From Bacteroidaceae bacterium (lineage in GTDB: Bacteria; Bacteroidota; Bacteroidia; Bacteroidales; Bacteroidaceae): 64,000 nucleotides of DNA. The position numbers and the translations under genes are program-made. The stretch spans positions 62,001 to 126,000 of the forward strand of contig JAFTYI010000008.1 in assembly GCA_017464815.1 (NCBI GenBank), read 5' to 3'. The notes beneath the pieces were generated by a model. That model had not been told where the DNA came from. It did not search any database and saw only the letters and a program-made list of their open reading frames with translations. This document shows positions 2,940 to 49,750 of the stretch, piece by piece (position 1 is the first letter of the stretch; each line of letters begins with the position of its first letter).

Positions 2940-2994
2940 GCGCGGATTACACGGTGTTGTCTTCATTCAACGCCGTGTAATCCGCGCTTTTTTT
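2940..2994. terminator. Palindrome GCGCGGATTACACGG with T run, ending the nuo operon
   Basis: A perfect 15-bp inverted repeat (2940-2954 with 2973-2987) is followed by CTTTTTTTG. It has the form of an intrinsic terminator. It also belongs to the dispersed CGCGGATTAC palindrome family found at 31221, 49641 and elsewhere in this window, so a repeat seems to have been recruited as the terminator. Confidence 0.75.
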
Positions 2995-4255: not shown

Positions 4256-7200
4256 ATGAAGCTGATAGACAACATACACGACCGGTTGAAGGACGACCTC
4301 GCCACCGAGATTCGCTCGGGTAGCCGCGTGGCCATTGCTGCCTCGTGCTTCTCTATCTACGCTTTTGAGGAGTTGAAGAGCCAGTTGGCCGGCATCGACG
4401 AGTTGCGCTTCATCTTCACCTCGCCCACCTTTGTCACTGAGAAGGCCAACAAGCAGAAGCGCGAGTTCTACATCCCCCGCCTCAACCGCGAACGCAACCT
4501 CTATGGCTCGGAGTTTGAAGTCAAGCTTCGCAACGAACTCTCCCAACGAGCCATTGCCCGCGAGTGTGCCGAGTGGATACGGCAAAAGGCCTGCTTCAAG
4601 AGCAACCGCACGGGCGAGCAGATGCAAGGCTTCGCCACCGTGGACGACAAGGCCTATATGCCCATCACGGGCTTCACCACCGTAGAGCTGGGATGTGAGC
4701 GCGGAGACAATGCCTACACCATGATCAACAAGTTCGAGGCTCCCTTCTCGCAATCTTACCTTTCGCTCTTCGACCAGATTTGGAACGACACGGCCAAGAT
4801 GCAGGTAGTTACCGACGAGGTGCTCGACAACATCACCAATGCCTACAAGGAGAATGCCCCCGACTTCATCTACTTCGTCACCCTCTACAACATCTTTCGT
4901 GAGTTCTTGGACGACCTTTCCGAAGACACCTTGCCCAACGAAGCCACCGGTTTCAAGGACAGCGTCATTTGGGGAAAACTCTATAACTTCCAGAAGGATG
5001 CCTGTCTGGCCATCATCAACAAGTTGGAGAAGTACAACGGTTGCATCCTGGCCGACTCCGTAGGTTTGGGTAAGACCTTCACCGCCCTTTCCGTGATCAA
5101 ATACTATCAGCAACGAAACAAGAACATCCTGGTGCTTTGCCCCAAGAAACTCAACGAGAACTGGATGACCTATCGGAGCAACTATCGCAACAACCCTTTG
5201 ATAAAGGACCGATTGCGCTACGATGTATTGTTTCATACCGACCTCTCGCGCATGAGTGGCGAGTCGAACGGTCTCAACCTTGAACTCTTCGAGTGGAGCA
5301 CCTACGACCTCATTGTCATCGACGAGTCGCACAACTTCCGCAACGGAGGAAAGGTGACGACGGATGAGAATGACGAGAATCCGCGTGAAAACCGCTACCT
5401 GCAATTGCTCAACAAGGTCATCCGCAAGGGGGTGAAGACCAAGGTGCTGATGCTCTCGGCCACACCCGTGAACAACCGCTTCAATGATTTGAAGAATCAG
5501 ATTGCACTCGCTTACGAGGGAGACTCTGAAAACATCGATGGCCTGCTCAACACGAGCCATAGCATCGACGACATCTTCCGTCAGGCACAAGCGGAATATA
5601 ACCGTTGGTCAAAGCTTCCGCCCGAAGGACGCACCACCAAAGAACTTCTGAATCGCCTGAGTTTCGACTTCTTCGAAGTGCTCGATAGCGTCACCATTGC
5701 CCGTAGCCGTAAGCACATCGAACAATACTACGACACCACCGACATCGGTAAGTTCCCTACACGACTGACACCCATTGCTCGCCGTCCACACCTAACCGAC
5801 TTGGATAGTGCCATCAATTACAATGAGATATACGGGATAGTCAGCCACTTGAATCTGGCCATATACACCCCGTCGGACTTCATCCTGCCAAGCAGGTTGT
5901 CTAAATATGTAAACATCACGAGTGAAGAGGAGTACTCCGGCCTTACCATGAAAGGGCGCGAACGGGGTATCCGCAAGTTGATGAGCATCAACCTGCTCAA
6001 ACGCCTCGAAAGTTCGGTCAACTCCTTCCGATTGACGCTCGAACGCATCAAAGGCTTGATTGCTTCGACGATAGACAGAATTAATTCTTTAGACGCAGAC
6101 GACGCGGATAACACAGATTATTCTTTATCCCATCCGCATGGTAAGATTAAATCCGCGTCATCCGCGTCATCCGCGTCTGAAAAATTATTCATTGAAGTAG
6201 AGGAATTAGACACCGACTTCGACTTCGACGACCGGGAGACAGATATGTTCATCGGTGGCAAGAAGACGAAGATAGCCCTGCAAGACCTCGATTACATTGC
6301 TTGGCGCAGCTATTTGAAGGAGGATTTGGAGAATTTGAATCTGCTGCTCCTCATGCTTGCCGACATCACTCCCGAGCACGATAGCAAACTCTTGCAACTC
6401 ATTGACGACCTCCGCCATAAGTTTGCCAACCCCATAAATGGTAATAACAAGAAGGTCATCATCTTCACTGCTTTTAGCGACACGGCCGAATACCTTTACG
6501 ATTGCCTGGCCGAGCGCATCAGGGAGAAACATGGTTTGCACACCGCCCTTGTCACCGGTCAGGTGGAGGCTCGTACCACCTTGAACCTTCCTCGGGGTGA
6601 GAAGCTCGACTTCAACAAAGTGCTCACCCTCTTTTCGCCCATCTCCAAAGAGGGGCATACGGTTTATCCCCACTTATTCAAAACTCATTTTTCATCCGCA
6701 GATGACACAGATTGCGCAGATTATTCTTTTTCTCATCCGCATGGTAGAATTAAATCCGCGTCATCCGCGTCATCCGCGTCTGAAAAATTCTCGATTGACG
6801 TTCTCATCGCCACCGATTGCATCAGTGAAGGTCAAAACCTGCAAGATTGCGACTATCTCATCAACTACGATATCCATTGGAACCCCGTGCGCATTATCCA
6901 GCGCTTTGGGCGAATTGACCGTATAGGAAGCAAGAACGATGTTATCCAACTCGTCAACTACTGGCCCGATATGGACTTGGACGAATACATCGACCTCAAA
7001 GGGCGTGTGGAAGCCCGCATGAAAGTGTCGGTAATGACCAGTACGGGCGATGACAACCCCATTTCTCCTGAAGAAAAGGGAGATTTGGAGTATCGTCGTG
7101 AGCAACTCAAGCGCCTGCAAAGCGAAGTGGTGGATATCGAAGAGATGAACACCGGCATCAGCATCATGGACTTGGGGTTGAACGAGTTCCGCCTCGACCT

Positions 7201-7747
7201 GCTTGCCTATATGCAAGACAATCCCAATATCGAGCACACCCCCTTTGGTCTTCATGCCGTAGTTCCTGCTTCTGAGGCTTGCCCTCCAGGGGTAGTATAT
7301 GTATTGAAGAACCGAAACAACGGAGTGAACATCGACCGTAAGAACCGTTTGCATCCGTTTTATATGGTGTACATCTCCGCGGTTTGTCATGCTGAGCAAA
7401 GCGAAGCATCTGTGAACGTTAGCAATAATAATCATTCTCAGATATTCATCAACCACCTTCAACCGAAGGAACTGTTGGATTGTATGCGCCTTCTCTGTAA
7501 AGGTAAAAATACTCCCAATATGGACATCTGCCGGGAGTTCAACCGCATTACTCGTGACGGAAAGAACATGCAACACTATTCTGAACTGTTGGGCGATGCC
7601 ATCTCCTCCATCATCCACGTAAAGGCAGAGAGCGACATCGACTCCTTCCTCAGTGGTGCACAAGGTTCGCTCTTCACCGAAGAGATACGAGGATTGGATG
7701 ATTTTGAATTGATATGTTTCCTCGTAATTCAACATCCCCAGACATAA
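4256..7747 (+). CDS. SNF2-type helicase with PLD-like N-terminal region, defence-associated
   Basis: An ATP-dependent DNA translocase of 1163 residues. The N terminus (about 1-180) resembles a phospholipase-D-like domain. The SF2 core has Walker [10 protein letters not shown] at 266-274, DESH at 356-359, SAT at 401 and motif [12 protein letters not shown] near 882. The ATG at 4256 follows a purine-rich AGGAAA. DUF4391, mod and res lie downstream on the same strand, an arrangement that I associate with anti-phage helicase/methylase/restriction loci. The gene carries three in-frame foreign repeats at residues about 612-641, 813-842 and 1043-1052, all between conserved motifs. Whether the enlarged protein is active is unknown, but there are no stops or frameshifts. 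Confidence 0.85.
6091..6178 (+). repeat. In-frame palindromic element, copy 1, inside the helicase gene
   Basis: The left arm 6091-6119 (AGACGCAGACGACGCGGAT...) pairs with the right arm 6150-6178 (...ATCCGCGTCATCCGCGTCT) around a 30-base loop. The translated product includes [10 protein letters not shown] and [19 protein letters not shown]. The same palindrome lies between genes at 23981, 38379 and elsewhere, so this is an inserted dispersed element that happens to be open in this frame. Confidence 0.9.
6694..6781 (+). repeat. In-frame palindromic element, copy 2, inside the helicase gene
   Basis: The arms 6694-6722 and 6753-6781 enclose a 30-base loop nearly identical to that of copy 1. It encodes [19 protein letters not shown], almost the same peptide in the same reading frame as copy 1. 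The left arm has decayed (more mismatches to the family consensus) while the right arm is intact. Confidence 0.9.
7384..7412 (+). repeat. In-frame fragment of a GCTGAGCAAAGCGAAGCATC-type dispersed repeat
   Basis: The stretch TGTCATGCTGAGCAAAGCGA... matches a short repeat that I know as widespread in Bacteroidetes intergenic DNA (TGTCATnCTGAGCgAAGCgAAG). It is translated as [10 protein letters not shown] between two segments that look conserved (HPFYMVYIS before, [18 protein letters not shown] after). Confidence 0.65.
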
Positions 7748-7790: not shown

Positions 7791-8405
7791 ATGTACGGCC
7801 TACCACAAAGCACCGAAGTAAAGAAGCAACTTCCGAAGCGTGCCATCTATGCGAAGTTCGACATGTCCGCCTCGCAACGCGAAAGTTTCGATGCCGACGT
7901 GAGCACACTATATATAATAGGTATAGTGTCGCCTCGCACCGTGCCCGCCATCGCTGAGGGAATGGATGTGAAAGAAATCTATGTGCTGGCCTTGCAGATG
8001 AAGCGCAAGGAGTACGACGCGAAGAACATCACGCTACTCACCCGTCTCATCCCCCAACGGATGGTGTTTGCCCTGCAATACGAGGAGGAAGTACAGTTTG
8101 CCATCTACCACACCAAGTTGATATGCTCTGAATGGATGTCTCGTGATGCAGACTCCTTCCCTATAGGGGAGGTTGGGAGGGGTCTCCTCAATCTTGACAC
8201 CGTATGGGAAAACCTTGTGCGGGGCATCGGGGGGATATTACCTGAAGAAAATTTCTCCCTCACGGAGCAAATATTTTTTTCAGACCTGAGAGAAAAAACG
8301 CTCAAGCAAATAGCCACTCTTGAGCGCAAAATGGCGAGTGAGAAACAGCCACGAAGGAAGCGCGAATTATTTGAACAGATTAAGGAATTGAAAAAGCAAC
8401 TATAA
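7791..8405 (+). CDS. DUF4391 domain protein
   Basis: A soluble protein of 204 residues beginning MYGLPQSTEVKKQLPKRAIY, which I recognise as DUF4391. Its biochemical role is unknown; it accompanies helicase/methylase defence loci, so a role as adaptor or assembly factor is inferred. The C terminus (from about residue 165) is rich in charged heptad-like sequence and may form a coiled coil. It starts 43 bases after the helicase stop in an A/T-rich gap and is followed 2 bases later by mod. Residues about 120-133 (DSFPIGEVGRGL) come from a dispersed repeat inserted in frame. Confidence 0.8.
   Translation: MYGLPQSTEVKKQLPKRAIYAKFDMSASQRESFDADVSTLYIIGIVSPRTVPAIAEGMDVKEIYVLALQMKRKEYDAKNITLLTRLIPQRMVFALQYEEEVQFAIYHTKLICSEWMSRDADSFPIGEVGRGLLNLDTVWENLVRGIGGILPEENFSLTEQIFFSDLREKTLKQIATLERKMASEKQPRRKRELFEQIKELKKQL
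8151..8188 (+). repeat. In-frame copy of the GGGGAGG/CCTCCCC dispersed repeat inside the DUF4391 gene
   Basis: GACTCCTTCCCTATAGGGGA followed by GGTTGGGAGGGGTCTC is, in reverse complement, like the repeat between nuoM and nuoN and the block before DUF456. It is translated without interrupting the gene. Confidence 0.7.
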
Positions 8406-8407
8406 TT

Positions 8408-10249
8408 ATGGAAAAACTAACCATGCAGAGCCACGATGTAATTGGCTCGAACACACGGAAGATTGCTGAACTCTTCCCTCATTGCGTCACTGAACGGAGG
8501 GGAAAGGATGGCACGCTTGAACTTGCGATTGACTTTGAAAAGCTGCAAGCAGAATTGAGCAACGAACTCATTGGCGAAGGCGAAGAGCGATACCAATTCA
8601 CTTGGCCGGACAAGCGGAAGGCCGTGAGGGAGGCGAATGTAAGCACTACATCCACCCTTCGCCCTTGTCGCGAAGAGAGTGTGGATTTCGACAACACACA
8701 AAACCTCTATATCGAAGGGGATAACCTTGAGGTGTTGAAGGTGCTTCGCGAAACCTATCTTGGCAAGGTAAAGATGATTTATATTGACCCGCCTTACAAT
8801 ACGGGCAATGACTTTGTGTATAATGATGATTTTGCTCAAAGCAAAGGTCATTTCGAGCAAGCAAGCGGACTCTTTGATGAAGAGGGCAACCAAACCATTG
8901 AGTCGATGCAACGCAATACCGAGAGCAACGGTCGTTTCCACACAGATTGGCTGAATATGATTTACCCTCGCCTTAAGGTCGCAAAAGACCTATTAGCGAA
9001 TGATGGTGCCATATTCATATCTATTGGAGATGATGAAGAGGCTAACCTTATCAAAATATGCGATGAGGTTTTTGGTGAACATAATTTCATAGCAAGTATA
9101 TGCCATAAACACAGGGCATCTGTTTCCAATGACAGGATAATATCTGAGAATCACAATCATTTAGTGTTTTATGCGAGAGATATATCAGTGATGTTTGCTA
9201 ACCAAAAGTTAATTGGAGAAGACCCAAAACTTGAAGGATTCAAATATTCAGACGAAAAAGGTGATTACAAACTGACTCCCGTAGATGGTCCCGGTGGAGC
9301 CAAGAAAGGTAATCCTCATTATGAGTTTTTGGGGGTAGAAGGCTATTGGCGATATTCCAAAGAGACGATGCAGCAGAAGTATGATGCGGGATTGATAGTA
9401 AGAACGCCTAATGGTTTACAGCAAAAGTATTATCTTGAGCAAGCAAAACAGACTCGACAAACAGTTACAACTTGGTGGGATGCAGACTTTCTAACATCAA
9501 CTGCAACAAAGGATTTTGCCACCTTGATGGGTGGTAAATACTTTGATAATCCTAAAAGTGTGAATTTGCTATTACGAACATTAAGGATGATAACTAAATT
9601 CTCATCAGATTCTATTATCCTCGACTTCTTCTCTGGCTCTGCAACAACAGCTCACGCTGTAATGAAACTCAATGCCGAAGATGGAGGAAACCGAAAGTTC
9701 ATTATGGTGCAACTTCCTGAAAAGACGGACGAGAAGAGCGAAGCCTATAAGGCGGGATATAAGAACATTTGCGAGATAGGGAAAGAGCGCATCCGCCGTG
9801 CAGGAAAAAAGGTGAAGGAAGAGGCTGGTTTGCAAGGTCAACACCTCGACACTGGTTTCCGCGTATTGAAACTCGACTCGTCGAACATGGAAGATGTCTA
9901 TTATACGCCCGCAGAGTTTGAGATGGGTTCACTCTTTGCCGAAAACGTGAAGGCTGACCGCACGAGCGAAGACCTGCTCTTCCAAGTGATGCTCGACCTG
10001 GGCATTGAACTATCCGCCAAGATTGAGACCGAGCGGATTGCCGGAAAGAGCGTCCACGTGGTAGATGACAACTATTTGGTGGCTTGCTTCGACCGCGATG
10101 TGAACGAATCGACCATCACCGAGATAGCCAAGCGGAAGCCTATCTACTTCGTGATGCGCGACGCCTCGGCCACGAACGACAATGTGATAGACAACTTCGA
10201 GCAGATATTCCGTCACTACTCATCCGAGACAACGTGCAGAATGATATAA
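8408..10249 (+). CDS. mod: Type III restriction-modification DNA methyltransferase (Mod)
   Basis: A 613-residue adenine DNA methyltransferase using S-adenosylmethionine. Catalytic motif IV is DPPY at residues 127-130 (IDPPYNTGNDFVYND), and SAM-binding motif I (DFFSGS) follows near 406-411. This is the beta order expected of type III Mod subunits. The middle (about 180-400), where target recognition sits, has distinctly more A/T-rich codons than either end, which suggests domain exchange. It starts 2 bases after DUF4391. The nuclease partner is the res gene at 11038, separated from it by the MntA/HepT pair. A solitary, epigenetic role is possible but less likely with res intact. Confidence 0.92.
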   Translation: MEKLTMQSHDVIGSNTRKIAELFPHCVTERRGKDGTLELAIDFEKLQAELSNELIGEGEERYQFTWPDKRKAVREANVSTTSTLRPCREESVDFDNTQNLYIEGDNLEVLKVLRETYLGKVKMIYIDPPYNTGNDFVYNDDFAQSKGHFEQASGLFDEEGNQTIESMQRNTESNGRFHTDWLNMIYPRLKVAKDLLANDGAIFISIGDDEEANLIKICDEVFGEHNFIASICHKHRASVSNDRIISENHNHLVFYARDISVMFANQKLIGEDPKLEGFKYSDEKGDYKLTPVDGPGGAKKGNPHYEFLGVEGYWRYSKETMQQKYDAGLIVRTPNGLQQKYYLEQAKQTRQTVTTWWDADFLTSTATKDFATLMGGKYFDNPKSVNLLLRTLRMITKFSSDSIILDFFSGSATTAHAVMKLNAEDGGNRKFIMVQLPEKTDEKSEAYKAGYKNICEIGKERIRRAGKKVKEEAGLQGQHLDTGFRVLKLDSSNMEDVYYTPAEFEMGSLFAENVKADRTSEDLLFQVMLDLGIELSAKIETERIAGKSVHVVDDNYLVACFDRDVNESTITEIAKRKPIYFVMRDASATNDNVIDNFEQIFRHYSSETTCRMI

Positions 10250-10307
10250 ATAGAGAGAAAAGAGAGAAAAAAAGAGTAAACCATAACACTGACTGAAAGA
10301 AAATTGT

Positions 10308-10315
10308 TACCTTTG
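10308..10315 (+). promoter_or_regulatory. -7 element TACCTTTG for the MntA/HepT pair
   Basis: TACCTTTG lies 25 bases before the preferred ATG at 10340. It gives the toxin-antitoxin pair its own promoter inside the restriction-modification locus. No clear -33 TTG is seen. Confidence 0.6.
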
Positions 10316-10339
10316 CAGAAATTATAGATGTTTGTAGTT

Positions 10340-10648
10340 ATGAACAGTGCCACAAGAAACAACATTATCCCTGCACTTCAAGGGTACTTTGCCACTCAAC
10401 CTGTAGCCAAAGCATGGTTGTTCGGCTCCTATTCGCGCGGTGAAGAAAGGCCCGAAAGCGATGTGGACATCTTAGTTGCGTTTGATAAAAATGCGAAAAT
10501 AAGCCTGTTCAAATACGCAAACATTATTTGTCAGTTAGAAGAGTTGCTGAAGCAGAAAGTTGATTTGGTGGAGGAAGGTACCTTGCTCCCTTTTGCACAA
10601 CAGACGGCAAACAATGATAAGGTCTTGATTTATGAGAGAGGTAATTAA
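10340..10648 (+). CDS. mntA: MntA-like minimal nucleotidyltransferase (antitoxin)
   Basis: A small nucleotidyltransferase of about 100 residues. The signature GSYSRGEERPESDVDILV has the GSx(10)DxD form needed for metal and nucleotide binding. In studied MntA/HepT pairs this protein AMPylates the HEPN toxin to silence it. An in-frame ATG at 10328 would leave almost no leader after the promoter, so I prefer 10340. It overlaps the HEPN gene by 17 bases, as is typical of this module. It sits between mod and res. Confidence 0.85.
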   Translation: MNSATRNNIIPALQGYFATQPVAKAWLFGSYSRGEERPESDVDILVAFDKNAKISLFKYANIICQLEELLKQKVDLVEEGTLLPFAQQTANNDKVLIYERGN

Positions 10649-10976
10649 AGACAGAGGACGACTCGAACACATGTTGACCGCCATAGAAAATGTGGAGGAG
10701 TTTACAAAGGATATCCATGAGGAGGACTTTGTGAAGAGTAAACTCTTGTTTTTTGCCGTAGTCAAGAACATAGAAATTGTGGGCGAAGCAACCTATATGC
10801 TGACAAAGGAATTCAAACAATCCCATTCGTCAATTCCTTGGCAAGTTATCGAAAAGATGCGCCACGTCCTTGTACATGGATATTACACTATTTCCCCGGA
10901 AAAAGTATGGGAAACGGTGCAGGAGGATTTGCCTGTATTGAAAAGGCAAATCGTGTCATTGTTGAAGGACGAATAG
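10632..10976 (+). CDS. hepT: HepT-like HEPN domain ribonuclease toxin (DUF86)
   Basis: A 114-residue all-helical HEPN protein. The motif RHVLVHGYY near residues 77-85 contains the R-x4-H catalytic signature followed by a tyrosine that, in characterised HepT proteins, is the AMPylation site. The family cleaves RNA when not silenced by its MntA partner, encoded immediately upstream with overlap. Its placement inside a type III R-M locus suggests a back-up abortive response or an addiction function for the locus; this is inference. Confidence 0.85.
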   Translation: MREVIKDRGRLEHMLTAIENVEEFTKDIHEEDFVKSKLLFFAVVKNIEIVGEATYMLTKEFKQSHSSIPWQVIEKMRHVLVHGYYTISPEKVWETVQEDLPVLKRQIVSLLKDE

Positions 10977-11037
10977 ACTTCAGGTAACGATTCTTTCAGT
11001 GACAAGTGGATGGTAAAAGTGAAACCATACATTCGTC

Positions 11038-14000
11038 ATGAAATTCAAATTTAAAATCCAACAGTACCAGACGGAGGCGGTGGAGAACACCGTGGCCGTA
11101 TTCAGAGGCCAACCCTCGCACAGGATGGCTGAATACCGGCGTGACTTGGGCCGACGCCAACAACAACAGATAGAGTATGAAGGGGAGACAGGATTCCGCA
11201 ACCACCGCATAGAGTTGGAGGGGCGGGAGTTGCTCAAGAATATCCATGCCATACAGAACCTCTATGACATCACTCCCTCACCCACACTGGCCAAAGGAGT
11301 AGGTGCGGTGAACCTCGACATCGAGATGGAGACGGGCACGGGTAAGACCTACGTCTATATCAAGACGATGTTTGAGCTGAACAAGCAATACGGGTGGAGC
11401 AAGTTCATCATTGTGGTGCCCAGCATTGCCATCCGCGAAGGGGTGGCCAAGAGTTTCAAGATGCTGGAAGAGCACTTTATGGAGCACTACGGAAGGAAAG
11501 CCCGATGGTTTATCTACAATAGCGGAAACCTGCAACAACTGGACAGCTTCTCGTCCGACTCGGGATTGAGCGTGATGATTATCAACACGCAAGCCTTTGC
11601 CGCCTCGATGAAGGAGGGTGGCAAGAGCAAGGAGAGCCGCATCATCTACTCCAAGCGTGATGAGTTCGGAAGCCGGAGACCCATCGACGTGATAGCTGCC
11701 AACCATCCCATCGTCATCATGGACGAGCCACAAAAGATGGAGGGCGATGCCACACAAGCGGGTATCAAACGGTTCAATCCGCTCTTTGTGCTCAACTACT
11801 CGGCTACACACAAGACGAAGCACGACACCATCTATGCACTGGACGCACTGGATGCTTACCGGCAGAAGTTGGTGAAGCGTATCCACGTGAAAGGCTTTGA
11901 GGTGAAGAACCTGCGAGGCACGAGCAGTTACCTCTATCTGGACAACATTGTACTATCGCCCAAACGTCCGCCCGAAGCCCGCATAGAGATAGAGACAAAG
12001 ACGGCATCGGGCACCATTGTGCGCAAAATAAAGACCTTCGGCGTGGGTGATAGCTTGCGTGAAGAGTCAGGATTGGCCGAATACGAAGGGTTTACCGTGT
12101 CGGAAATCAATGTGAACGGGTATGTGACCTTCCTCAATGGCACGACCATTCGCCGAGGCGAAGTGATAGGCGACACCAACGAACTGAACATGCAACGGGT
12201 GCAGATAAGGGAGACCATCATGTCGCACTTTGAGAAGGAACGCCAATTGTTCAAACGGGGCATCAAGTGTCTGTCGCTCTTCTTCATCGATGAAGTGGCG
12301 AAATACAAGAGCTACGATGAAGAGGGCAATGAGGTGAAGGGCATCTTTCAACGGATGTTTGAGGAAGAGTATTCACGCCTGGTGAGCAATGAGTTCCATA
12401 TTTGGGACGAAGAGTACAACGAATACTTGCGCCGCTTTATGCCCAAAGATGTGCACCGCGGATATTTCTCCATCGACAAGAAGACCAACCGCATGGTGGA
12501 TAGCAAGATAGAGAAGAAGACGGGACTTTCGGACGACATCTCCGCCTACGAACTCATCTTGAAGAACAAAGAAAGGCTATTGAGCTTTGAAGAGCCGACC
12601 CGCTTCATCTTCTCGCACTCGGCACTTCGCGAAGGTTGGGACAATCCGAATGTCTTCCAAATCTGTACACTCCGCCACTCCAACTCCACTACGGCCAAGC
12701 GTCAGGAAGTGGGACGAGGATTGCGCCTTTGTGTGGATAAACACGGCACGCGCATGGATGCAGAGTTACTTGGCGAAGACGTGCACGAGGTGAACAAACT
12801 GACGGTGATAGCCAACGAAAGTTATGCCGACTTCACCACGGCACTGCAACGCGAGACACGCGAAGTGCTCCGCGAACGTTCGGCCAAAGCCACGGTCTCT
12901 TACTTCACCGGCAAACAAATCAAGCTGGGCGAGGAGATATACACCATCAGCGAAACGGAGGCAAGCCGTATCATCATCTATCTGGAAGACAACGGGTATA
13001 TTGACGACAACAAGAACATAACGCCCGAATACCGCGAGGCGGTAGCTAACGGACAGGTTGCTCCCTTGCCTCAGAAATTACAACCGATAGCCGAGGGGGT
13101 AACACGCCTTATCAACTCCATCTTCGACCCGAAGGCACTCGACGACATGGTAGTGGAGGAGAAAACCTCTACACCGGATAACAAGTTGAACGAGAATTTC
13201 GACAAAGCAGAGTTTCAGGCTCTTTGGAAGGAAATCAATCACCAATATGTCTATACGGTGAGCTATGATAGCAACGAACTGATAGAGAAAGCTATCCTGC
13301 ACATCAATGCCGAACTGGAGGTGAAGCAACTCCGCTACGTGATGGTGGAGGGCACGCAAGACGAAAGCCAAGTGGCAGAGTTTGGAGACACCCGTTCGCA
13401 ATCGCGCGAGCTGACCGATGTGTGCACCTCGACCGTCAAGTACGACCTTGTGGGAGACATTGCCAAAGGGGCAAACCTGACGCGGCGCACGGTGGTGAAG
13501 ATATTGCAAGGCATAAGGCCGAACAAACTCTATCTGTTCAAAAACAACCCCGAAGAGTTTATCCGCAAGGTGGTGAGCATCATCAAAGAACAGAAATCGA
13601 CGATGATTGTAGAGCACATTCACTACAACATCACCGAAGGAAAGTACGATAGCGACATCTTCACCGTAAAAAGCAAGATGGACTTTGACCGCGCTTACGA
13701 AGCGAAGAAGCATGTGACCGACTATGTGTTCAGCGACAGTAAGGGCGAACGCCAGTTTGCCCACGACCTGGACGAAGCCAATGAAGTGGTGGTGTATGCA
13801 AAACTTCCACGCACTTTCCAAATACCTACACCCGTAGGGAACTATGCCCCCGACTGGGCTATAGCCATGAAAAAGAATGATGTGAAACATATCTTCTTCA
13901 TTGCCGAAACGAAAGGCTCGATGTCGTCCATGGACTTGTCCGCCATCGAAAAGGCAAAGATTGAATGTGCCGAGAAACTCTTCAATTCCATCTCTACAGC

Positions 14001-14067
14001 TAATGTGAAGTATCACAAAGTGGCGACTTATCAGGACTTGATAGATGGGATGAATGCAGTAGGGTGA
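11038..14067 (+). CDS. res: Type III restriction enzyme, Res subunit
   Basis: A 1009-residue SF2 helicase-nuclease. Walker A is TGTGKT at 99-104, the DEAH-box variant is DEPQ at 229-232, and a C-terminal helicase motif VI-like stretch is QEVGRGLRL. At the C terminus PD at 938-939 (PDWAIAMKK) and ExK at 957-959 (AETKG) form a PD-(D/E)xK nuclease. With Mod it would cleave DNA carrying unmethylated sites in inverted orientation. The start ATG follows ATTCGTC. The last 132 coding bases, plus the terminator's left arm, are duplicated at 15421-15574. Confidence 0.92.
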   Translation: MKFKFKIQQYQTEAVENTVAVFRGQPSHRMAEYRRDLGRRQQQQIEYEGETGFRNHRIELEGRELLKNIHAIQNLYDITPSPTLAKGVGAVNLDIEMETGTGKTYVYIKTMFELNKQYGWSKFIIVVPSIAIREGVAKSFKMLEEHFMEHYGRKARWFIYNSGNLQQLDSFSSDSGLSVMIINTQAFAASMKEGGKSKESRIIYSKRDEFGSRRPIDVIAANHPIVIMDEPQKMEGDATQAGIKRFNPLFVLNYSATHKTKHDTIYALDALDAYRQKLVKRIHVKGFEVKNLRGTSSYLYLDNIVLSPKRPPEARIEIETKTASGTIVRKIKTFGVGDSLREESGLAEYEGFTVSEINVNGYVTFLNGTTIRRGEVIGDTNELNMQRVQIRETIMSHFEKERQLFKRGIKCLSLFFIDEVAKYKSYDEEGNEVKGIFQRMFEEEYSRLVSNEFHIWDEEYNEYLRRFMPKDVHRGYFSIDKKTNRMVDSKIEKKTGLSDDISAYELILKNKERLLSFEEPTRFIFSHSALREGWDNPNVFQICTLRHSNSTTAKRQEVGRGLRLCVDKHGTRMDAELLGEDVHEVNKLTVIANESYADFTTALQRETREVLRERSAKATVSYFTGKQIKLGEEIYTISETEASRIIIYLEDNGYIDDNKNITPEYREAVANGQVAPLPQKLQPIAEGVTRLINSIFDPKALDDMVVEEKTSTPDNKLNENFDKAEFQALWKEINHQYVYTVSYDSNELIEKAILHINAELEVKQLRYVMVEGTQDESQVAEFGDTRSQSRELTDVCTSTVKYDLVGDIAKGANLTRRTVVKILQGIRPNKLYLFKNNPEEFIRKVVSIIKEQKSTMIVEHIHYNITEGKYDSDIFTVKSKMDFDRAYEAKKHVTDYVFSDSKGERQFAHDLDEANEVVVYAKLPRTFQIPTPVGNYAPDWAIAMKKNDVKHIFFIAETKGSMSSMDLSAIEKAKIECAEKLFNSISTANVKYHKVATYQDLIDGMNAVG

Positions 14068-14089
14068 AAACAAAGAATGGAGGAACTGA
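13936..14089 (+). repeat. 154-bp direct repeat, copy A (3' end of res)
   Basis: It starts TTGTCCGCCATCGAAAAGG and ends AATGGAGGAACTGA. Copy B at 15421-15574 has the same length and differs at only about six positions. The pair brackets a 1.3-kb cassette with two gene units. Confidence 0.95.
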
Positions 14090-14821: not shown

Positions 14822-15434
14822 CTTAGAACATCGCCCGTTACTGATAGTCATTGCCGGGCCTAACGGGTCGGGTAAGACTTCTGTGACTTCACGACTTCTT
14901 AAACACGAATGGGTAGAAGATTCGGCATATATAAATCCTGACAATGTAGCAAAAGATCTGTTTGGAGATTGGAACTCCAAGGAAGCTGTGCTTAGTGCCG
15001 CAAACTATTGTGCCGAATGGAGAGAAAGATGCTTGGCAGAGAAGAAAAGTCTTATCTTTGAAACAGTGATGTCTGCTGACGATAAAGTCGATTTCATCTT
15101 GCGTGCGAAAGAAGCAGGCTTCTTTGTAAGAATCTTCTTCATTGCTACTGCAAATCCAACAATCAATGCAGCTCGAATAGCGGGTCGTGTAATGAAAGGT
15201 GGACATGATGTGCCTATTACCAAAATCGTTTCGAGATACAGAAAGTCTATCTATAATTGCATAAAGATTTCCAGTTTCGTTGACCGTCTCTATGTCTATG
15301 ACAACTCCGTGGATGGAGAAGAAGCAAAACTGCAATTCCGTTTAGTGAATGGTGTTATGGGTAAAATGTATGTAACCGATGTGCCTAAATGGGCACAAGC
15401 CATATTACCCGACACGGAATTTGTCCGCCATTGA
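14814..15434 (+). CDS. Zeta-toxin-like P-loop kinase
   Basis: A 206-residue protein with Walker A GPNGSGKT at 15-22, the strand LIFETVMS near residue 80, and a basic lid RIAGRVMKGGHDVPITKIVSRY near 121-141. These match zeta-toxin/AAA_33 kinases; classical zeta phosphorylates UDP-N-acetylglucosamine, but the substrate here is unknown. Its final residues (about FVRH) and stop are read from the duplicated 154-bp segment of res, so the end of this protein was created or altered by the duplication. The overlapping small gene upstream is the likely antitoxin. Confidence 0.8.
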   Translation: MGNLEHRPLLIVIAGPNGSGKTSVTSRLLKHEWVEDSAYINPDNVAKDLFGDWNSKEAVLSAANYCAEWRERCLAEKKSLIFETVMSADDKVDFILRAKEAGFFVRIFFIATANPTINAARIAGRVMKGGHDVPITKIVSRYRKSIYNCIKISSFVDRLYVYDNSVDGEEAKLQFRLVNGVMGKMYVTDVPKWAQAILPDTEFVRH

Positions 15435-15574
15435 AAAAGCAAAGATTGAATGTGCCGAGAAACTCTTCAATTCCATCTCTACAGCTAAAGTGAAGTATCA
15501 CAAAGTGGCGACTTATCAGGACTTGATAGATGGGATGAATGCAGTGAGGTGAAAACAATGAATGGAGGAACTGA
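15421..15574 (+). repeat. 154-bp direct repeat, copy B
   Basis: A near-identical copy of 13936-14089. Its first 14 bases finish the zeta-like gene, and its last base directly abuts the stop codon of the minus-strand DUF3791 gene at 15575. It can again pair GGAGGAACTGA with TCAGTTCCTCC at 15592-15602. Confidence 0.95.
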
Positions 15575-21345: not shown

Positions 21346-23828
21346 GGGTTATGAAAGGAGATATTATGAAAGGAGTTAATGGAGTTAAAGGAGTTAGAGG
21401 AGTTAGAGGAGATATCGCTTCGCTTTGCTCGTTAGGAGTTAAAGCCAATCGTTTTGCTTGCATAATTGCTTGCATGATTACAAAACATTTGGCTAAGCTG
21501 GCAAAGCCTGCGATAACTCCTTTAACTCCTAAGCCCAAAGGGCTGATAACTCCTTTAATAATAATCCTCACCGCCTGCAGCACTACACGCAACCTGCCCG
21601 AGGAGGAGACGCTTTACACGGGCATCAAGCGCATTGAGTATGTCAACGACAGCGCCCTGCGACACACCGAAGCCGCCCTTGACGAGGTGGAGGCCGCCTT
21701 GGCTTATCCGCCCAACAACGCCATCTTTGGCAGCTCGTCCTACCGCTTCCCGCTCCCCTTCGGCCTGTGGGTCTACAACGCCTTTGTCAACCACCAGCGG
21801 GGTGTGGGCAAATGGGTGTTCAACAACTTTGCCGCCGAGCCGGTCTATATGTCAGCCGTCAATCCCGAGGTGCGCAGCAAGGTGGCCACCAATCTGCTCC
21901 GCGACTACGGTTTCTTCCGTGGGCGGGTGGCGAGCGAGGTCATTCCCCAGAAGAACCCCCGCAAGGAGAAGGTGGCCTACCGCGTGAATGCCGGACACCT
22001 CTTCACCCTCGACTCCATCCAGTACCGCCGCTTTCCCTACGTGGCCGACACGCTGATACGTTTCACGGCAAAGGAGAAGTTGTTGCATGCGGGCGACCCC
22101 TTCAGCGTTGTCCAACTCGAGAGCGAACGCAACCGCCTCTCTACCCTTTTCCGCAACAACGGCTACTACTACTATCGGGGCGACTACATCACCTTCCGCG
22201 CCGACACCATCCAGCGGCCGGGCCATGTGTGGTTGCAGGTGCAACCGCGCGAAGGACTCCCCTCCGTGGTAAACCGCCAATGGTATATTGGCAAAACCGT
22301 GGTGAACCTGCACAACAACAACCGCCGCCAGCTGGAGGACACGCTGCAAATCCGCCACCTGACCGTCAACTACACGGGTAAGAAGCCGCCCCTGCGTCCC
22401 GGTGTGCTGTTCCACAACTTCCGCTTCCGCCACGGTGACCTCTATTCGCAAGAGAAGCAGCGGCTGAGCCAAGAGAACATGGCACGTATGGGGGTGTTCA
22501 GCTCGGTGGACATGCAGTTTGTGCCACGCGACACCACCGCCACGTGCGATACGCTCGATGTCGTGGTCAGCGCCACCTTCGACAAGCCCTTGGATGTGGA
22601 GTTGGAGGTGAACGCCACCAGCAAGAGCAACGACCAGATAGGCCCCGGACTCTCCTTCGGCGTGGCCAAAAAGAACGTTTTCCGCGGGGGCGAGACCTTC
22701 TCGGTGAAACTGGATGCCTCCTACGAGTGGCAGACGGGTGGGACGGCCACGGGCAAGAGTGCCGAAATCAACTCGTGGGAGCTGGGCCTCTCCACCGCCC
22801 TCACCTACCCGCGCCTGATGTTTCCCGGGTTGAACACCCGCCGATTCCGCTTCCCTGCACAGACGGAGTTCAAGCTCTACGCCAACCAGTTGAACCGCGC
22901 GGGATTCTTCCGCCTGCTGTCGTTCGGGGGTAACGCCGTCTACTCCTTCCAACCGACGCGCACATCGAAGCACACCTTCACCCCCTTCCGCCTGACCTTC
23001 AACATGCTGCAGAGCCACACGGCCAAGTTCGACTCCATCATGGAGCAGAACCGTGCCCTGGCTATCAGCTTCCGCGACCAGTTCATCCCCGCCATGAGCT
23101 ACACCTACACGTTCGACGACGCCAGCATCACCTCGCGCCGCCACCACACTTGGTGGAGTACGACAGTGACCTCGGCAGGCAACGTCACCTCGGCCCTCTA
23201 CGCCCTGTGTGGCAGCCCCTTCAGCAAGCGCGACAAGTCGCTCCTTGGCAACCCCTTCGCCCAGTTCTTCAAAGCCACTACCGAACTGCGCAACCTCTTC
23301 AAGGTGCGCGGCCGCACCCACGTGGCCACCCGCCTGATGGCCGGTGTCATCATTCCCTACGGCAACTCCCAGTATGCTCCCTACAGCGAACAGTTCTACA
23401 TCGGCGGAGCCAACAGCATCCGTGCCTTCACGGCCCGCACCATCGGCCCCGGCAGTTTCCATCCCGAAGAGAGCACCTATTCCTACCTCGACGAGACGGG
23501 CGACGTCAAGCTGGAGGCTAACGTGGAGTTGCGCTTCCCCATCGTGGGCAACCTCTATGGCGCCACTTTCCTCGATGCGGGAAACGTCTGGCTCCTCCAC
23601 CCCCAAGCCGACCGCCCCGGCGGCACACTCACACTGAACGACCTTTGGAACGACATCGCCCTTGGTACCGGCCTTGGCTTGCGCTACGACCTTGAGTTCC
23701 TCGTCCTGCGCCTCGACCTCGGCATCGCCATCCACGTACCCTATGACACGGGCAAAAGCGGCTACTACAACATCCCACGCTTCAAGGACGGGCTCGGCCT
23801 CCACCTCGCCGTGGGGTATCCGTTTTAA
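21342..23828 (+). CDS. BamA/TamA-like outer-membrane protein, lipoprotein-type signal
   Basis: A protein of up to 828 residues, POTRA-like region then a 16-strand barrel (Omp85 type); the C-terminal half contains YIGGANSIRAFTARTIGPG, a typical barrel-family segment, and it ends in ...LAVGYPF. It should act with TamB. The signal is a lipobox, ILTACSTTRN near residue 78, unusually far from the first ATG because about 60 residues are encoded by an inserted 9-bp-period repeat (GVNGVKGVRGVRG...). ATGs at 21342, 21351 and 21366 are all possible; the first overlaps the tamB stop. The true N terminus and lipidation are uncertain. Confidence 0.85.
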   Translation: MRVMKGDIMKGVNGVKGVRGVRGDIASLCSLGVKANRFACIIACMITKHLAKLAKPAITPLTPKPKGLITPLIIILTACSTTRNLPEEETLYTGIKRIEYVNDSALRHTEAALDEVEAALAYPPNNAIFGSSSYRFPLPFGLWVYNAFVNHQRGVGKWVFNNFAAEPVYMSAVNPEVRSKVATNLLRDYGFFRGRVASEVIPQKNPRKEKVAYRVNAGHLFTLDSIQYRRFPYVADTLIRFTAKEKLLHAGDPFSVVQLESERNRLSTLFRNNGYYYYRGDYITFRADTIQRPGHVWLQVQPREGLPSVVNRQWYIGKTVVNLHNNNRRQLEDTLQIRHLTVNYTGKKPPLRPGVLFHNFRFRHGDLYSQEKQRLSQENMARMGVFSSVDMQFVPRDTTATCDTLDVVVSATFDKPLDVELEVNATSKSNDQIGPGLSFGVAKKNVFRGGETFSVKLDASYEWQTGGTATGKSAEINSWELGLSTALTYPRLMFPGLNTRRFRFPAQTEFKLYANQLNRAGFFRLLSFGGNAVYSFQPTRTSKHTFTPFRLTFNMLQSHTAKFDSIMEQNRALAISFRDQFIPAMSYTYTFDDASITSRRHHTWWSTTVTSAGNVTSALYALCGSPFSKRDKSLLGNPFAQFFKATTELRNLFKVRGRTHVATRLMAGVIIPYGNSQYAPYSEQFYIGGANSIRAFTARTIGPGSFHPEESTYSYLDETGDVKLEANVELRFPIVGNLYGATFLDAGNVWLLHPQADRPGGTLTLNDLWNDIALGTGLGLRYDLEFLVLRLDLGIAIHVPYDTGKSGYYNIPRFKDGLGLHLAVGYPF
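21354..21560. repeat. 9-bp-period repeat AGAGGAGTT with inverted partner, translated
   Basis: Units AAAGGAGTT, AATGGAGTT, AAAGGAGTT, AGAGGAGTT, AGAGGAGAT run at about 21368-21412. Their complement AACTCCTTTAACTCCTAA lies at 21514-21531 and AACTCCTTTA at 21548-21557. The two halves could form a hairpin over the translation start region of the BamA-like gene. Confidence 0.85.
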
Positions 23829-23980
23829 AAGGCCACACTAACTTTCCCAAAGGAAAGAGAGCAAAGCTACAAACCACGAGCAAGTTTAATCATCTGCATC
23901 AAAAAAAAGAAATGAATTATAACCCACCTTCATTGGCAGAAAAACATGTAACGAGGGTTGTCAAAATGCACTCATTTCAT

Positions 23981-24082
23981 TTTTTAGACACGGATAACAC
24001 GGATAACGCAGATAAATTATAACCTATCGGGTATAATAATCAAGAAAATCCGCGTCATCCGCGTTATCCGCGTCTAAAAAAT
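23981..24082. repeat. Dispersed CGCGGAT palindrome between convergent genes
   Basis: TTTTTAGACACGGATAACAC... pairs with ...CCGCGTTATCCGCGTCTAAA about 50 bases away. It lies between the BamA-like gene and the convergent M16 peptidase gene, where a bidirectional terminator would be expected; both ends carry T/A runs. It is the same family as the copies inside the helicase gene. Confidence 0.85.
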
Positions 24083-31199: not shown

Positions 31200-31220
31200 C
31201 AAGGTGTGCTACAACACAAA

Positions 31221-31306
31221 TTTAGGCACGGATTACATAGACTGACACGGTCATTATACTCATTGTGTATAAATTATCCGTGAAATCCGTGTAATCCGTG
31301 CCTAAA
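31221..31306. repeat. Dispersed palindrome, TTTAGGCACGGATTAC type
   Basis: The left arm TTTAGGCACGGATTACATAG pairs with the right arm CCGTGTAATCCGTGCCTAAA. It lies between the divergent-looking FecCD upstream region and the end of rpmE2, and is the same structural family as the copies at 2940 and 49641. Confidence 0.85.
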
Positions 31307-31367
31307 GTAGGGGGTGTTCGTATATAACCACCCTCTTGTTTCCGATGAAACCCTTGCGGTAATCTTC

Positions 31368-33363: not shown

Positions 33364-33918
33364 ATGAAGAAGTTTAAAGTTAGCGCCATGTGCGCAGTGT
33401 TGTGCGGTAGCATGATGTTCTCATCATGTATCGGTTCGTTTGCCTTGTTCAACAAGGTGAAGGATTGGAACGAGGGTCTGACTGACAGCAAGTTTGTGAA
33501 CGAGCTTCTGTATCTGGCCATGTGGATCGTGCCTGTGTATGAAATCTCTTTCTTTGTGGACAACGTGCTGTTGAACAGCATCGAGTTCTGGACAGGCAAC
33601 AACCCTGTAGCCAACGCCGGTGAGGTGAAGACAGTGAAGGGTCAGAACGGTGACTACCTGGTGAAGACCAACGCCGACGGCTACACCATCACCAACGAGG
33701 CTGGTCAGGAGATGACACTGAAGTTTGATGCCGAGGCTCAGAGCTGGAGCGTGATGAACGGCCAGGAGGCTATCGAGCTGTTGAGCATCAACGGTGACGG
33801 CACTGTGAACATGAACTTGCAGAACGACACCTACATGCAGGTGACTCTCGACAATGCCGGCCTGATGGCTGCCCGCCAGGCCACTTCGGCCCAGACTTGC
33901 GGCTTTGCTATGAGATAA
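33364..33918 (+). CDS. DUF3332 lipoprotein-like exported protein
   Basis: 184 residues. An N-terminal signal ends in SSCIGS with a Cys at about 22, consistent with lipidation, followed by FALFNKVKDWNEGLTDSKFVNELLYLAMWIVPVYEIS, which I recognise as DUF3332. A hydrophobic segment near residues 45-70 could be membrane-embedded. Function unknown. The very regular use of common codons and a strong promoter suggest good expression. Its stop codon lies inside a 69-bp tandem duplication that carries the terminator. Confidence 0.85.
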   Translation: MKKFKVSAMCAVLCGSMMFSSCIGSFALFNKVKDWNEGLTDSKFVNELLYLAMWIVPVYEISFFVDNVLLNSIEFWTGNNPVANAGEVKTVKGQNGDYLVKTNADGYTITNEAGQEMTLKFDAEAQSWSVMNGQEAIELLSINGDGTVNMNLQNDTYMQVTLDNAGLMAARQATSAQTCGFAMR

Positions 33919-34049
33919 GCAGTGATGCATGAGTAAAAGAGAAGGGGCACTCCGAGGAGGAGTGTCCCTTTTTTGTGGATGAGACAAGCAGTGATGCACG
34001 AGTAAAAGGGAAGGGGCACTCCGAGGAGGGGTGTCCCTTTTTTGTGGGT
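33912..34049 (+). terminator. Tandemly duplicated terminator (two 69-bp units)
   Basis: Each unit (33912-33980 and 33981-34049) contains an AGCAGTGATGCAYGAG segment and the hairpin GGGGCACTCC/GGAGTGTCCC or a near variant, ending in TTTTTTG. The duplication begins just before the stop codon of the DUF3332 gene, so the second copy repeats the coding tail outside the gene. Two terminators in series would make read-through into the convergent manA very low. Confidence 0.9.
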
Positions 34050-35402: not shown

Positions 35403-35452
35403 GGGAGCTATAGGGACTACAGTGGCCATAGGGGCTATAGGGACTATAGGGG
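35403..35452. repeat. 9-bp-period array, GGGACTATA type, in a 5' leader
   Basis: Consecutive 9-mers GGGACTACA, GTGGCCATA, GGGGCTATA, GGGACTATA. The same unit type recurs at 36047-36093, so the two arrays flank the calycin-like gene as direct repeats. Confidence 0.85.
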
Positions 35453-35511: not shown

Positions 35512-36048
35512 ATGGATATGAAAAGACTGAAGATGCTTCCCTTGGTGCTGATGGCACTATGTGCGGGATTTGCCTTTGTGGCTTGTAGTGATGACGATGA
35601 CGAACCGAAGTTGACGATTGACCCGGTGATGGGCACTGCCGAGTGGGCTGCCGGCGAATACGTGGGCACCACGCTGACCGACCTCGACAGCCGGGGCATG
35701 GTGATGCGCATCGACACGACTTATGACCAGCCCGTCACCCTGGGCTTGAACGAGCAGAAGGAGCTGGTGCTGACCTACCACAACTGGACTGACCACACGG
35801 GCATGAGCTATGGCGACTTCCGCATCCTGCCCTTGGAGACGGTGGCTACGGAAGAGGGGGTTGTCGTCAGCGGCGAGTGCACCGACAGCCTCTACAAGGC
35901 GGGCGTGGGCTACCCTGCCACACTGAAGGTGGCGGGCACCATCAGCGGCGAGCCGAAGGTGGCCGACCTGACCATGAACATCGACCTGGTGGTAAGCCCC
36001 AAGATGACGCTGAAGTTCACGCTGGAGTATGAGGGGGGAGAGAGATAG
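35512..36048 (+). CDS. Calycin-like small lipoprotein
   Basis: 178 residues. Signal sequence with lipobox FVACSDDDDE; the Asp run after Cys may influence surface export. The rest is beta-rich with EYVGTTLTDLDSRGMVM..., DFRILPLE and a final KMTLKFTLEYEG strand, which fits the calycin-like/lipocalin-like domain of Bacteroidetes. It presumably binds a small ligand or supports the TonB-dependent receptor whose start codon lies inside its 3' end. Confidence 0.75.
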   Translation: MDMKRLKMLPLVLMALCAGFAFVACSDDDDEPKLTIDPVMGTAEWAAGEYVGTTLTDLDSRGMVMRIDTTYDQPVTLGLNEQKELVLTYHNWTDHTGMSYGDFRILPLETVATEEGVVVSGECTDSLYKAGVGYPATLKVAGTISGEPKVADLTMNIDLVVSPKMTLKFTLEYEGGER

Positions 36049-38362: not shown

Positions 38363-38378
38363 CAGTCCCTGACAATAT

Positions 38379-38480
38379 TCTTCAGACGCGGATGACGCGG
38401 ATAACGCGGATTTCTTTTTGCCACTCATCGGGAAGACAATAAAGAATCCGCGTCATCCGCGTCATCTGCGTCTAAGAAAT
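38379..38480. repeat. Dispersed CGCGGAT palindrome between convergent genes
   Basis: TTCAGACGCGGATGACGCGG at the left pairs with CCGCGTCATCTGCGTCTAAG at the right, with a 30-base loop. This copy is closest in sequence to the two translated copies in the helicase gene. It separates the receptor gene from the convergent HU-like gene. Confidence 0.88.
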
Positions 38481-40975: not shown

Positions 40976-41187
40976 AGACCCTCCCCCGGCCCCTCCAGTA
41001 AGGGGAAGACCCTCCCCCAGCCCCTCCCTCTATGGAGGGGAGATAGATAGTAAGGTAAATAAATAATAAGTAGTAAACAGGCGGACAGCTCCCTCCCCTT
41101 CATAGAGGGAGGGGCAGGGAGTGGGTCCGCAATCAGACATTCCACTTCTCCCCTCCCTAGAGGGAAGGGTCGGGGGTGGGTCTCTTT
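40976..41187. repeat. Cluster of CCCTCC/GGAGGG dispersed repeats
   Basis: At least three copies of the element seen between nuoM and nuoN: two forward copies at about 40976-41045 and two reverse-type copies at about 41088-41187, one containing CTCCCCTCCCTAGAGGGAAG. They fill the gap between GH43 and the DUF456 gene and can form alternative large hairpins. Confidence 0.85.
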
Positions 41188-41696: not shown

Positions 41697-41811
41697 CCCC
41701 CTAAGGCCCTTAGAGTCCCTAAAGCCCCTAAAGACCCTAAAGACCTTAAAGACCCTAAAGACCTTAAGCACCCTTAACCCCCATCAACCCCATCAACCCC
41801 ATCAGCCCCCT
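41697..41811. repeat. 9-bp-period array switching from CCCTAAAGA to CCCATCAAC units
   Basis: Units such as ACCCTAAAG and ACCTTAAAG run for about nine periods, then change within the same register to CCCCATCAA repeats. It fills the whole gap between DUF456 and folB. Confidence 0.88.
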
Positions 41812-42207: not shown

Positions 42208-42407
42208 TCCCATCAGACCCATCAGGCCTATCAAGCCCATCCAACCCATCAGACCCATCAGGCCCATCAAGCCTATCCAACCCATCAACCCCATCAGGTC
42301 CATCAAGCCTATCCAACCCATCAACCCCATCAGGTCCATCCAATCCCATCTAGAGAGTCTAGATTGTCTAGAACTTCTAGATTGTCTAGAGCGCCTAGAA
42401 CTTCTCC
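42208..42407. repeat. Two adjoining 9-bp-period arrays: CCCATCARG then TCTAGANNN
   Basis: About sixteen units of CCCATCAAG/CCTATCCAA type (42208-42349) in exact 9-bp register pass into six TCTAGA-based units (TCTAGAGAG, TCTAGATTG, TCTAGAACT, TCTAGATTG, TCTAGAGCG, CCTAGAACT; 42350-42403). TCTAGA is self-complementary, so the second array can fold on itself. Confidence 0.9.
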
Positions 42408-49633: not shown

Positions 49634-49640
49634 AATAATC

Positions 49641-49716
49641 AGGCGCGGATTACACGGATTACACGGATAAAGAGCATTTTTCAATCCGTGTTTATCCGCG
49701 TAATCCGCGCCTTTTT
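49641..49716. repeat. Dispersed palindrome, AGGCGCGGATTACACGG type
   Basis: The left arm AGGCGCGGATTACACGGATT pairs with the right arm AATCCGTG..TAATCCGCGCCT, followed by TTTTT. It ends the oad operon and immediately precedes the GH28 gene; an in-frame ATG at 49688 lies within the right arm. Confidence 0.88.
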
Positions 49717-49750
49717 CGTACTATTATTAACTCCTAAATCTTATCCTATT

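Follow-up and report, generated by a model that had tools for sequence, protein, structure and literature searches.

Three in-frame inserts in the gene of a PLD/SNF2-type helicase of a Bacteroidaceae genome match repeats that are dispersed in the same genome. Comparison with homologues indicates that the two palindromes among them (type A) are insertions of a dispersed element, and the third insert, as judged by its sequence, is derived from a repeat family (type C) that is unrelated to the type A palindromes. The same comparison indicates that the site of the third insert is a recurrent landing place, where other extra segments were taken in, several of them dispersed repeats or hairpins.

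The helicase gene and its three inserts

All coordinates refer to the window, that is, the whole stretch of 64,000 nucleotides that was analyzed. The helicase gene (4256..7747, + strand; 1163 aa) has Pfam matches to SNF2-rel_dom and Helicase_C, and its best PADLOC match is HKD+Snf2; these matches suggest a helicase of the antiviral type. The open reading frame stays open across all three inserts. A DUF4391 gene (7791-8405) adjoins the helicase gene, and genes for a type III methyltransferase (8408-10249) and a type III restriction enzyme (11038-14067) are located in the same neighbourhood, all on the + strand and together spanning 7791..14067. The end of the restriction gene is covered by the first copy of a 154-nt direct repeat (13936-14089 and 15421-15574, 96% alike).

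The first type A copy (6085..6184, +) has its arms at 6092-6118 and 6151-6177 and encodes a 33-residue peptide. The second copy (6688..6787, +; arms 6695-6721 and 6754-6780) is located directly upstream of a conserved stretch of the helicase. Both are about 100 bp long and can be aligned without gaps, agreeing at 86 of 100 positions and being mismatched at the other 14. The right arm of each copy consists of three exact ATCCGCGTC units; the left arms have decayed, that of copy 2 the most. When their folding was compared with that of dinucleotide shuffles, copy 1 scored z -7.8 and copy 2 z -5.2, with none of 200 shuffles folding as well, although random windows of genes of this kind also reached z < -3 in 8 of 120 cases (5% point -3.1). 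An earlier note on this DNA, made from the sequence alone, had described two copies of a palindrome with 29-bp arms that lie in one frame of an SNF2 gene and give nearly the same peptide. The place, the frame and the peptides hold, but the pairing of the arms was overstated, the left arms being degenerate.

The third insert (7385..7430, +) is an in-frame addition to the two copies seen before. It corresponds to one arm of the type C repeat (TGTCATGCTGAGCAAAGCGAAGCATCTGTGAACG), its peptide being in frame, and it forms no hairpin alone (z +0.3, no better than shuffles). Half-sites of the type C repeat number 53+46 in the own genome, versus 0+0 for the reversed control.

The left end of the type A element, TTTTTTAGACGCGGATGA, contains stop codons that close two of the three forward frames. 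Because the element is a palindrome, the same closure applies to the other strand, and only the peptides DAD...SAS or DAD...PRH can be encoded. The common frame of the helicase copies is therefore a property of the element, and the stop codons at TTTTTTAGACGCGGATGA rule out selection on the peptide as its cause. The shared frame and peptide are thus no sign of selection on the peptide; besides, the two copies are nearly identical. A unit of 9 nt means that units can be gained or lost with the frame kept, which would aid survival of the element in genes.

A structure model of the helicase was based on 37 aligned sequences and was too weak for a fold search (mean pLDDT 57.9, pTM 0.43). Low-confidence coil is predicted for residues 615-671, 810-843 and 1044-1060, the last of these between two strands. 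The model thus suggests that the inserts sit in coil between secondary-structure elements, although low pLDDT would give coil for any unaligned insert. That the insertions fall between helicase motifs, as previously proposed, is roughly true, except that the Pfam Helicase_C match (823-891) begins within insert 2. The helicase with its inserts presumably still works, and the peptides encoded by the inserts are probably neutral.

The helicase was compared with two sets of homologues. The family set comprises 27 sequences from 26 other genomes of the family (E<=1e-100). The named set started from 56 loci of named genomes, of which 43 were kept after removal of 3 incomplete loci and of 10 whose matched range contained a stop or a frameshift; the two sets (27 + 43 = 70 rows) share some sequences. 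All three inserts are absent from 27 of 27 family homologues and from 43 of 43 clean named homologues, the nearest of which (L181) is 87% identical to the helicase. At site 1 the helicase has 39 residues, versus medians of 13 and 14 in the two sets; at sites 2 and 3 it has 43 and 24 residues, respectively, versus a median of 7 for both. Such an alignment had been proposed in the earlier note, and its outcome, 70 homologues without the inserts, supports the view that dispersed palindromes were inserted. The same note had named the same peptides at the same positions in unrelated lineages as evidence against it; what was found at those sites instead were other extra segments, several of them repeat-derived. 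The relatives are too divergent at the insert sites to place exact junctions or a target duplication, and this includes the 83-88% identical relatives of the glycoside hydrolase described below.

Some homologues themselves exceed the median length, L187 and L188 by 9 residues at site 1, and L141, L181 and L189 by 8-9 residues at site 2. The latter three have short C-rich sequences there, whose folding does not surpass that of shuffles (z -0.7 to -1.0). These C-rich sequences resemble CCCTCCCTCTATGGAGGGG hairpins, pairs of which are present at 1305-1439 and 41007-41183 of the window and represent another dispersed inverted-repeat family.

A high-copy element family and its hosts

The own draft genome comprises 2,633,653 bases in 58 contigs and is 78.68% complete. 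A pattern of two arm units has 70+77 matches in it, versus 1+0 for the reversed control, and a pattern of three units has 49+56, versus 0+0. A sister type has 156+147 matches, also versus 0+0. The clean reversed controls imply that the pattern copies are not due to chance. The two types are distinguished by their units, GACGCGGAT in type A and CACGGATTA in the sister type, B, whose unit in the window is GGCACGGATTACACGGAT; intermediates occur, for example in the glycoside hydrolase gene described below. Typical type A copies are 100-104 bp long. In the stretches around listed matches, exact runs per arm were of two units in 107 cases, of three in 76 and of four in 1.

In the window, type A palindromes are located between genes at 23980..24081 (-), inside an outer inverted repeat GAGGGTGTGTCA/TGACA, and at 38378..38479 (+). 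Type B palindromes are located between genes at 31218..31309 (+; GGCACGGATTACA units) and 49635..49718 (+), and a short one with 20-nt arms and an 8-nt loop is present at 2940..2987 (+). The earlier note had reported the same palindrome at 23981 and 38379 and a related form at 2940, 31221 and 49641. This distinction corresponds to the two types, the first two being type A and the other three the sister type. Intergenic copies, the lack of which the note would have taken as evidence against insertion, are abundant in the own genome.

The window and the stretches fetched around listed matches contain at least 150 clusters, at least 109 of them with two or more matches and at least 91 with both arms; the clusters with one match include chance ones. 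A donor copy with the loop of the helicase copies was found neither elsewhere in the fetched stretches nor in a peptide search of 15 genomes. According to gene calls made with our own codon-score script, 43 of 109 clusters lie between unidirectional genes, 38 between convergent and 4 between divergent ones, 17 lie at the edges of stretches and 7 inside genes, one of these 7 calls (L065) being doubtful. The median distance to the 3' end of a gene is 29 nt, and it is at most 50 nt for 54 of the 81 measurable clusters. Many type A copies are enclosed by an outer inverted repeat, GAGG(G/C)TGTGTCA, seen at 17 distinct sites (18 pairings, two of them at one site) in stretches that were chosen for holding elements; it may represent terminal inverted repeats like those of a MITE, or a terminator, which it resembles. 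An Rfam search of the window returned one tRNA and nothing else.

The window contains other repeats as well. Unrelated tandem arrays of AAAGGAGTT, GCTATAGGG, CCCTAAAGA and CCCATCAAG have a period of 9 nt, which equals the length of a unit in the arms of the palindromes; arrays of this period are present at 21369-21411, 35407-35452, 36045-36093, 41699-41809 and 42209-42350. A 69-nt terminator-like hairpin unit is present as a tandem duplicate (94% alike) at 33910-34047.

The three-unit pattern was detected in 24 of 251 genomes of the family. Within the genus it is present in 10 of 15 genomes, with up to 84+81 matches (genome G123, a second species), and outside the genus in 14 of 236 genomes of the same family, with at most 8 matches each. 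In a draw from the phylum, 5 of 198 genomes matched including the own one; the others had 1 to 5 matches, some of them plain tandem runs, and there was one match of the reversed control. High counts are thus confined to the genus, and abundance is characteristic of it. Over 4,007 bases, no difference separates the helicase locus of G123 from a record of Bacteroidaceae bacterium RGIG6310 (sheep rectum), and that of genome G193 is likewise identical to RGIG3992 (roe deer cecum) over 5,352 bases, which places the genus of the window among herbivore-gut Bacteroidaceae. Spread of type A by phages was considered and rejected; there were 0 exact matches in IMG/VR for type A and 3 for type B.

In-frame repeats at one helicase loop and in other genes

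At site 3, 6 of the 43 named homologues (L141, L151, L156, L162, L173 and L181) have 8 to 20 extra residues, the sequences of which differ. Those of L156 (z -6.4) and L151 (z -4.3) are clear hairpins; those of L162 (z -3.3), L181 (z -2.7) and L173 (z -2.4) are within or near the background, and that of L141 is a direct repeat (z +0.6). When the inserts were compared with their own 9-15-kb loci, several further matches were found for L141 and a few for L151 and L162, and for L156, L173 and L181 there was no independent match in these loci beyond weak ones or their own arms. The alignments firmly support that extra sequence recurs at this site; that all of it would be mobile palindrome is not firm. 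The peptides at one site are unlike one another across homologues and, from their sequences, appear to be of low complexity.

Other genes also contain in-frame copies. In a glycoside hydrolase 2 gene (contig C52) an intermediate-type palindrome in frame is followed by a repeat-like segment, and this insert is absent from 6 of 6 aligned homologues, five of which are 83-88% identical. A Toprim/DnaB-type gene (C49) has a composite insert. Of nine viral homologues, which are 39-46% identical, eight are without it and the ninth does not cover the site. A type C palindrome is present, together with a VPSVSSV segment, in the DUF7833 ORF directly before this gene.

G123 provides a further case: an interdomain linker of a mobile-element protein, which we take to be VirE/DUF3987-like, contains an in-frame type B palindrome (z -8.0); this copy is read in another frame of the unit (HGFHGLHG...PCNPCNPC). 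A relative of this protein in the own genome (contig C22), for which Pfam gave no match, carries a composite insert in the corresponding linker. The linker is hypervariable across the family: of ten segments besides that of G123, three had z -3.8, -3.6 and -3.2, and the others found were at -2.1 or weaker. For the C22 and L305 proteins, no relatives were found among viruses. In a related mobile protein (L332), the linker sequence is KDLKDLKDLKDL; this is a 9-nt direct repeat in translated form and resembles the CCCTAAAGA array of the window. Furthermore, L041 (contig C22) and L364 (the first bases of contig C14) seem to be parts of one mobile-element gene split at a composite repeat.

Only a few percent of the copies lie inside genes. 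When a spanning ORF with coding-like flanks was required, this applied to 5 of 110 clusters of the own genome, one of them (L044) a chance match, and to 1 of 64 in G123; the C22 gene is open through its insert yet failed the coding-flank score.

Spread of the elements and comparison with known repeats

We consider it probable that the host carries REP-like, non-autonomous palindromic elements, some landings of which in genes were tolerated in frame. The elements are about 100 bp long, each arm being built from two to four units of 9 nt, and would spread as insertions mainly into transcribed space behind genes. Few would have landed in genes, and these are seen where 25-70 extra residues are bearable and the element is open in frame. 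Both palindromes in the helicase would then be copies of type A, of which the second may be a local duplicate of the first, and the third insert would derive from a separate repeat family.

As the means of spread we tentatively favour, by a weak preference, the mechanism that has been proposed for REPs, in which a Y1/HUH transposase acts in trans and copies the element as a single strand; hairpin-associated template switching is almost equally likely. Matches to Y1_Tnp were found in 5 of the 15 genomes of the genus, all five of which have elements; five element-bearing genomes of the genus, for example G137 (32+31 matches) and G207 (38+41), are without a Y1 match, these genomes being incomplete. 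In three of the five, the match is part of a 345-347-aa protein with a long C-terminal extension (L228, L229 and L230, the last at G000:C11:13136-13387), and in the other two the ORFs are shorter. A RAYT partner was sought in five fetched stretches around Y1_Tnp ORFs, which held no 9-nt-unit or type C repeat. The hairpins may be selfish DNA, as the earlier note implied; no mobilising enzyme flanked by the elements or otherwise linked to them was found.

Whether copy 2 was inserted independently, or arose through gene conversion or template switching with copy 1 as its source at a distance of 603 bp, is close to balanced, with the chance of local derivation slightly below even. The copies share a 34-nt loop that is present in no other fetched stretch, the peptide search of the 15 genomes gave E < 1e-11 for these two only, and their alignment is free of gaps; however, their left arms and flanks differ, and a donor with the 34-nt loop may be missing from a genome that is 79% complete. 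It is unlikely that the inserts are useful, with selection maintaining loops of repeat origin because they diversify the proteins of defence and mobile elements. In-frame copies are found in a small number of genes, which often have more than one (the helicase has three, the DUF7833 ORF two kinds, and its neighbour and the C22 gene composites) and are mostly defence or mobile-element genes, but the same bias is expected if only dispensable genes and loose loops survive, and the peptides are of low complexity and dissimilar at the same site.

Two further explanations fare worse. A repeat-rich, metagenome-assembled draft could contain artefacts, and contigs do break at such repeats, as illustrated by the mobile gene whose halves lie at the ends of C14 and C22. 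The helicase gene, however, is well inside a 198-kb contig and open through three inserts, and chance joins cannot account for all of the in-frame copies in a second genome and the differing inserts that named genomes have at these sites; an assembly artefact is thus very improbable. It is hardly credible at all that the helicase had the inserts ancestrally and that they were lost in others. No observation speaks for this, the 70 homologues of the two overlapping sets are without them, and repeats that match the insert sequences are scattered over the own genome.

Beyond the preferred account of REP-like elements, it is conceivable, but rather doubtful, that across Bacteroidales the same permissive loops of DNA-processing proteins from defence systems and mobile elements take up, time and again and in frame, short palindromes and 9-nt repeats from unrelated families, so that new protein sequence keeps arising. 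The unit of 9 nt, which allows gain and loss of units in frame, would perhaps be why such elements persist in genes. Protein-coding palindromes were first held to be peculiar to Rickettsia and were later found with REPs of other bacteria, and the present case adds a high-copy family in gut Bacteroidales and three repeat inserts in one gene. One loop taking in different repeats in several lineages is a natural replication that separates the doing of the element from the tolerance of the site, and it makes testable whether noncoding repeats steadily supply protein loops. Annotators should be aware that a low-complexity segment of this kind may be a translated repeat rather than a domain.

Rickettsia palindromic elements (RPE) are reportedly the subject of papers by Ogata. 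According to one paper, RPE are dispersed palindromes of about 100-150 bp, some of them in frame in unrelated genes and missing from orthologues, and nearly half of the copies in R. conorii are inside ORFs (PMC10969869). Insertion in frame into genes of unrelated proteins, absent from orthologues, is also seen here, and to this extent the RPE pattern seen in the earlier note stands; it is not confined to Rickettsia, though, and the share of copies in ORFs is a few percent here versus nearly half in R. conorii. Compared by description and not by sequence, the elements also differ from RPE in their arms of 9-nt units and their Bacteroidales host. Small mobile repeats with open frames in annotated genes, the enterobacterial repeat units RU-1 to RU-3 or intragenic MITEs, are described in another paper (PMC2759123). 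The likeness, again by description only, lies in a mobile repeat with an open frame inside genes, and the difference in the host.

According to a third paper, REPs are present in high copy near 3' ends, between convergent or unidirectional genes; in-frame intragenic REPs occur in several species, sometimes two per gene, leaning to genes for DNA synthesis/replication and repair; and CGTC repeats, with stems of 8-9 bp and loops of 4-5 nt, have been reported in Bacteroidetes (PMC3733652). Our elements resemble REPs in their extragenic position at 3' ends. They differ from CGTC REPs in their arms of about 27 nt, built of 9-nt units, and their loops of tens of nt, and from GTAG REPs in that no RAYT flanked by repeats was found. 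A literature search with the exact sequence of the element gave 0 matches, and no such element in Bacteroidales was described among the matches listed for open-licence papers. In-frame palindromes as a principle are already known from Rickettsia and other bacteria; within the literature searched, the element family, its Bacteroidales hosts and the repeated capture of unrelated repeats at one loop are new.
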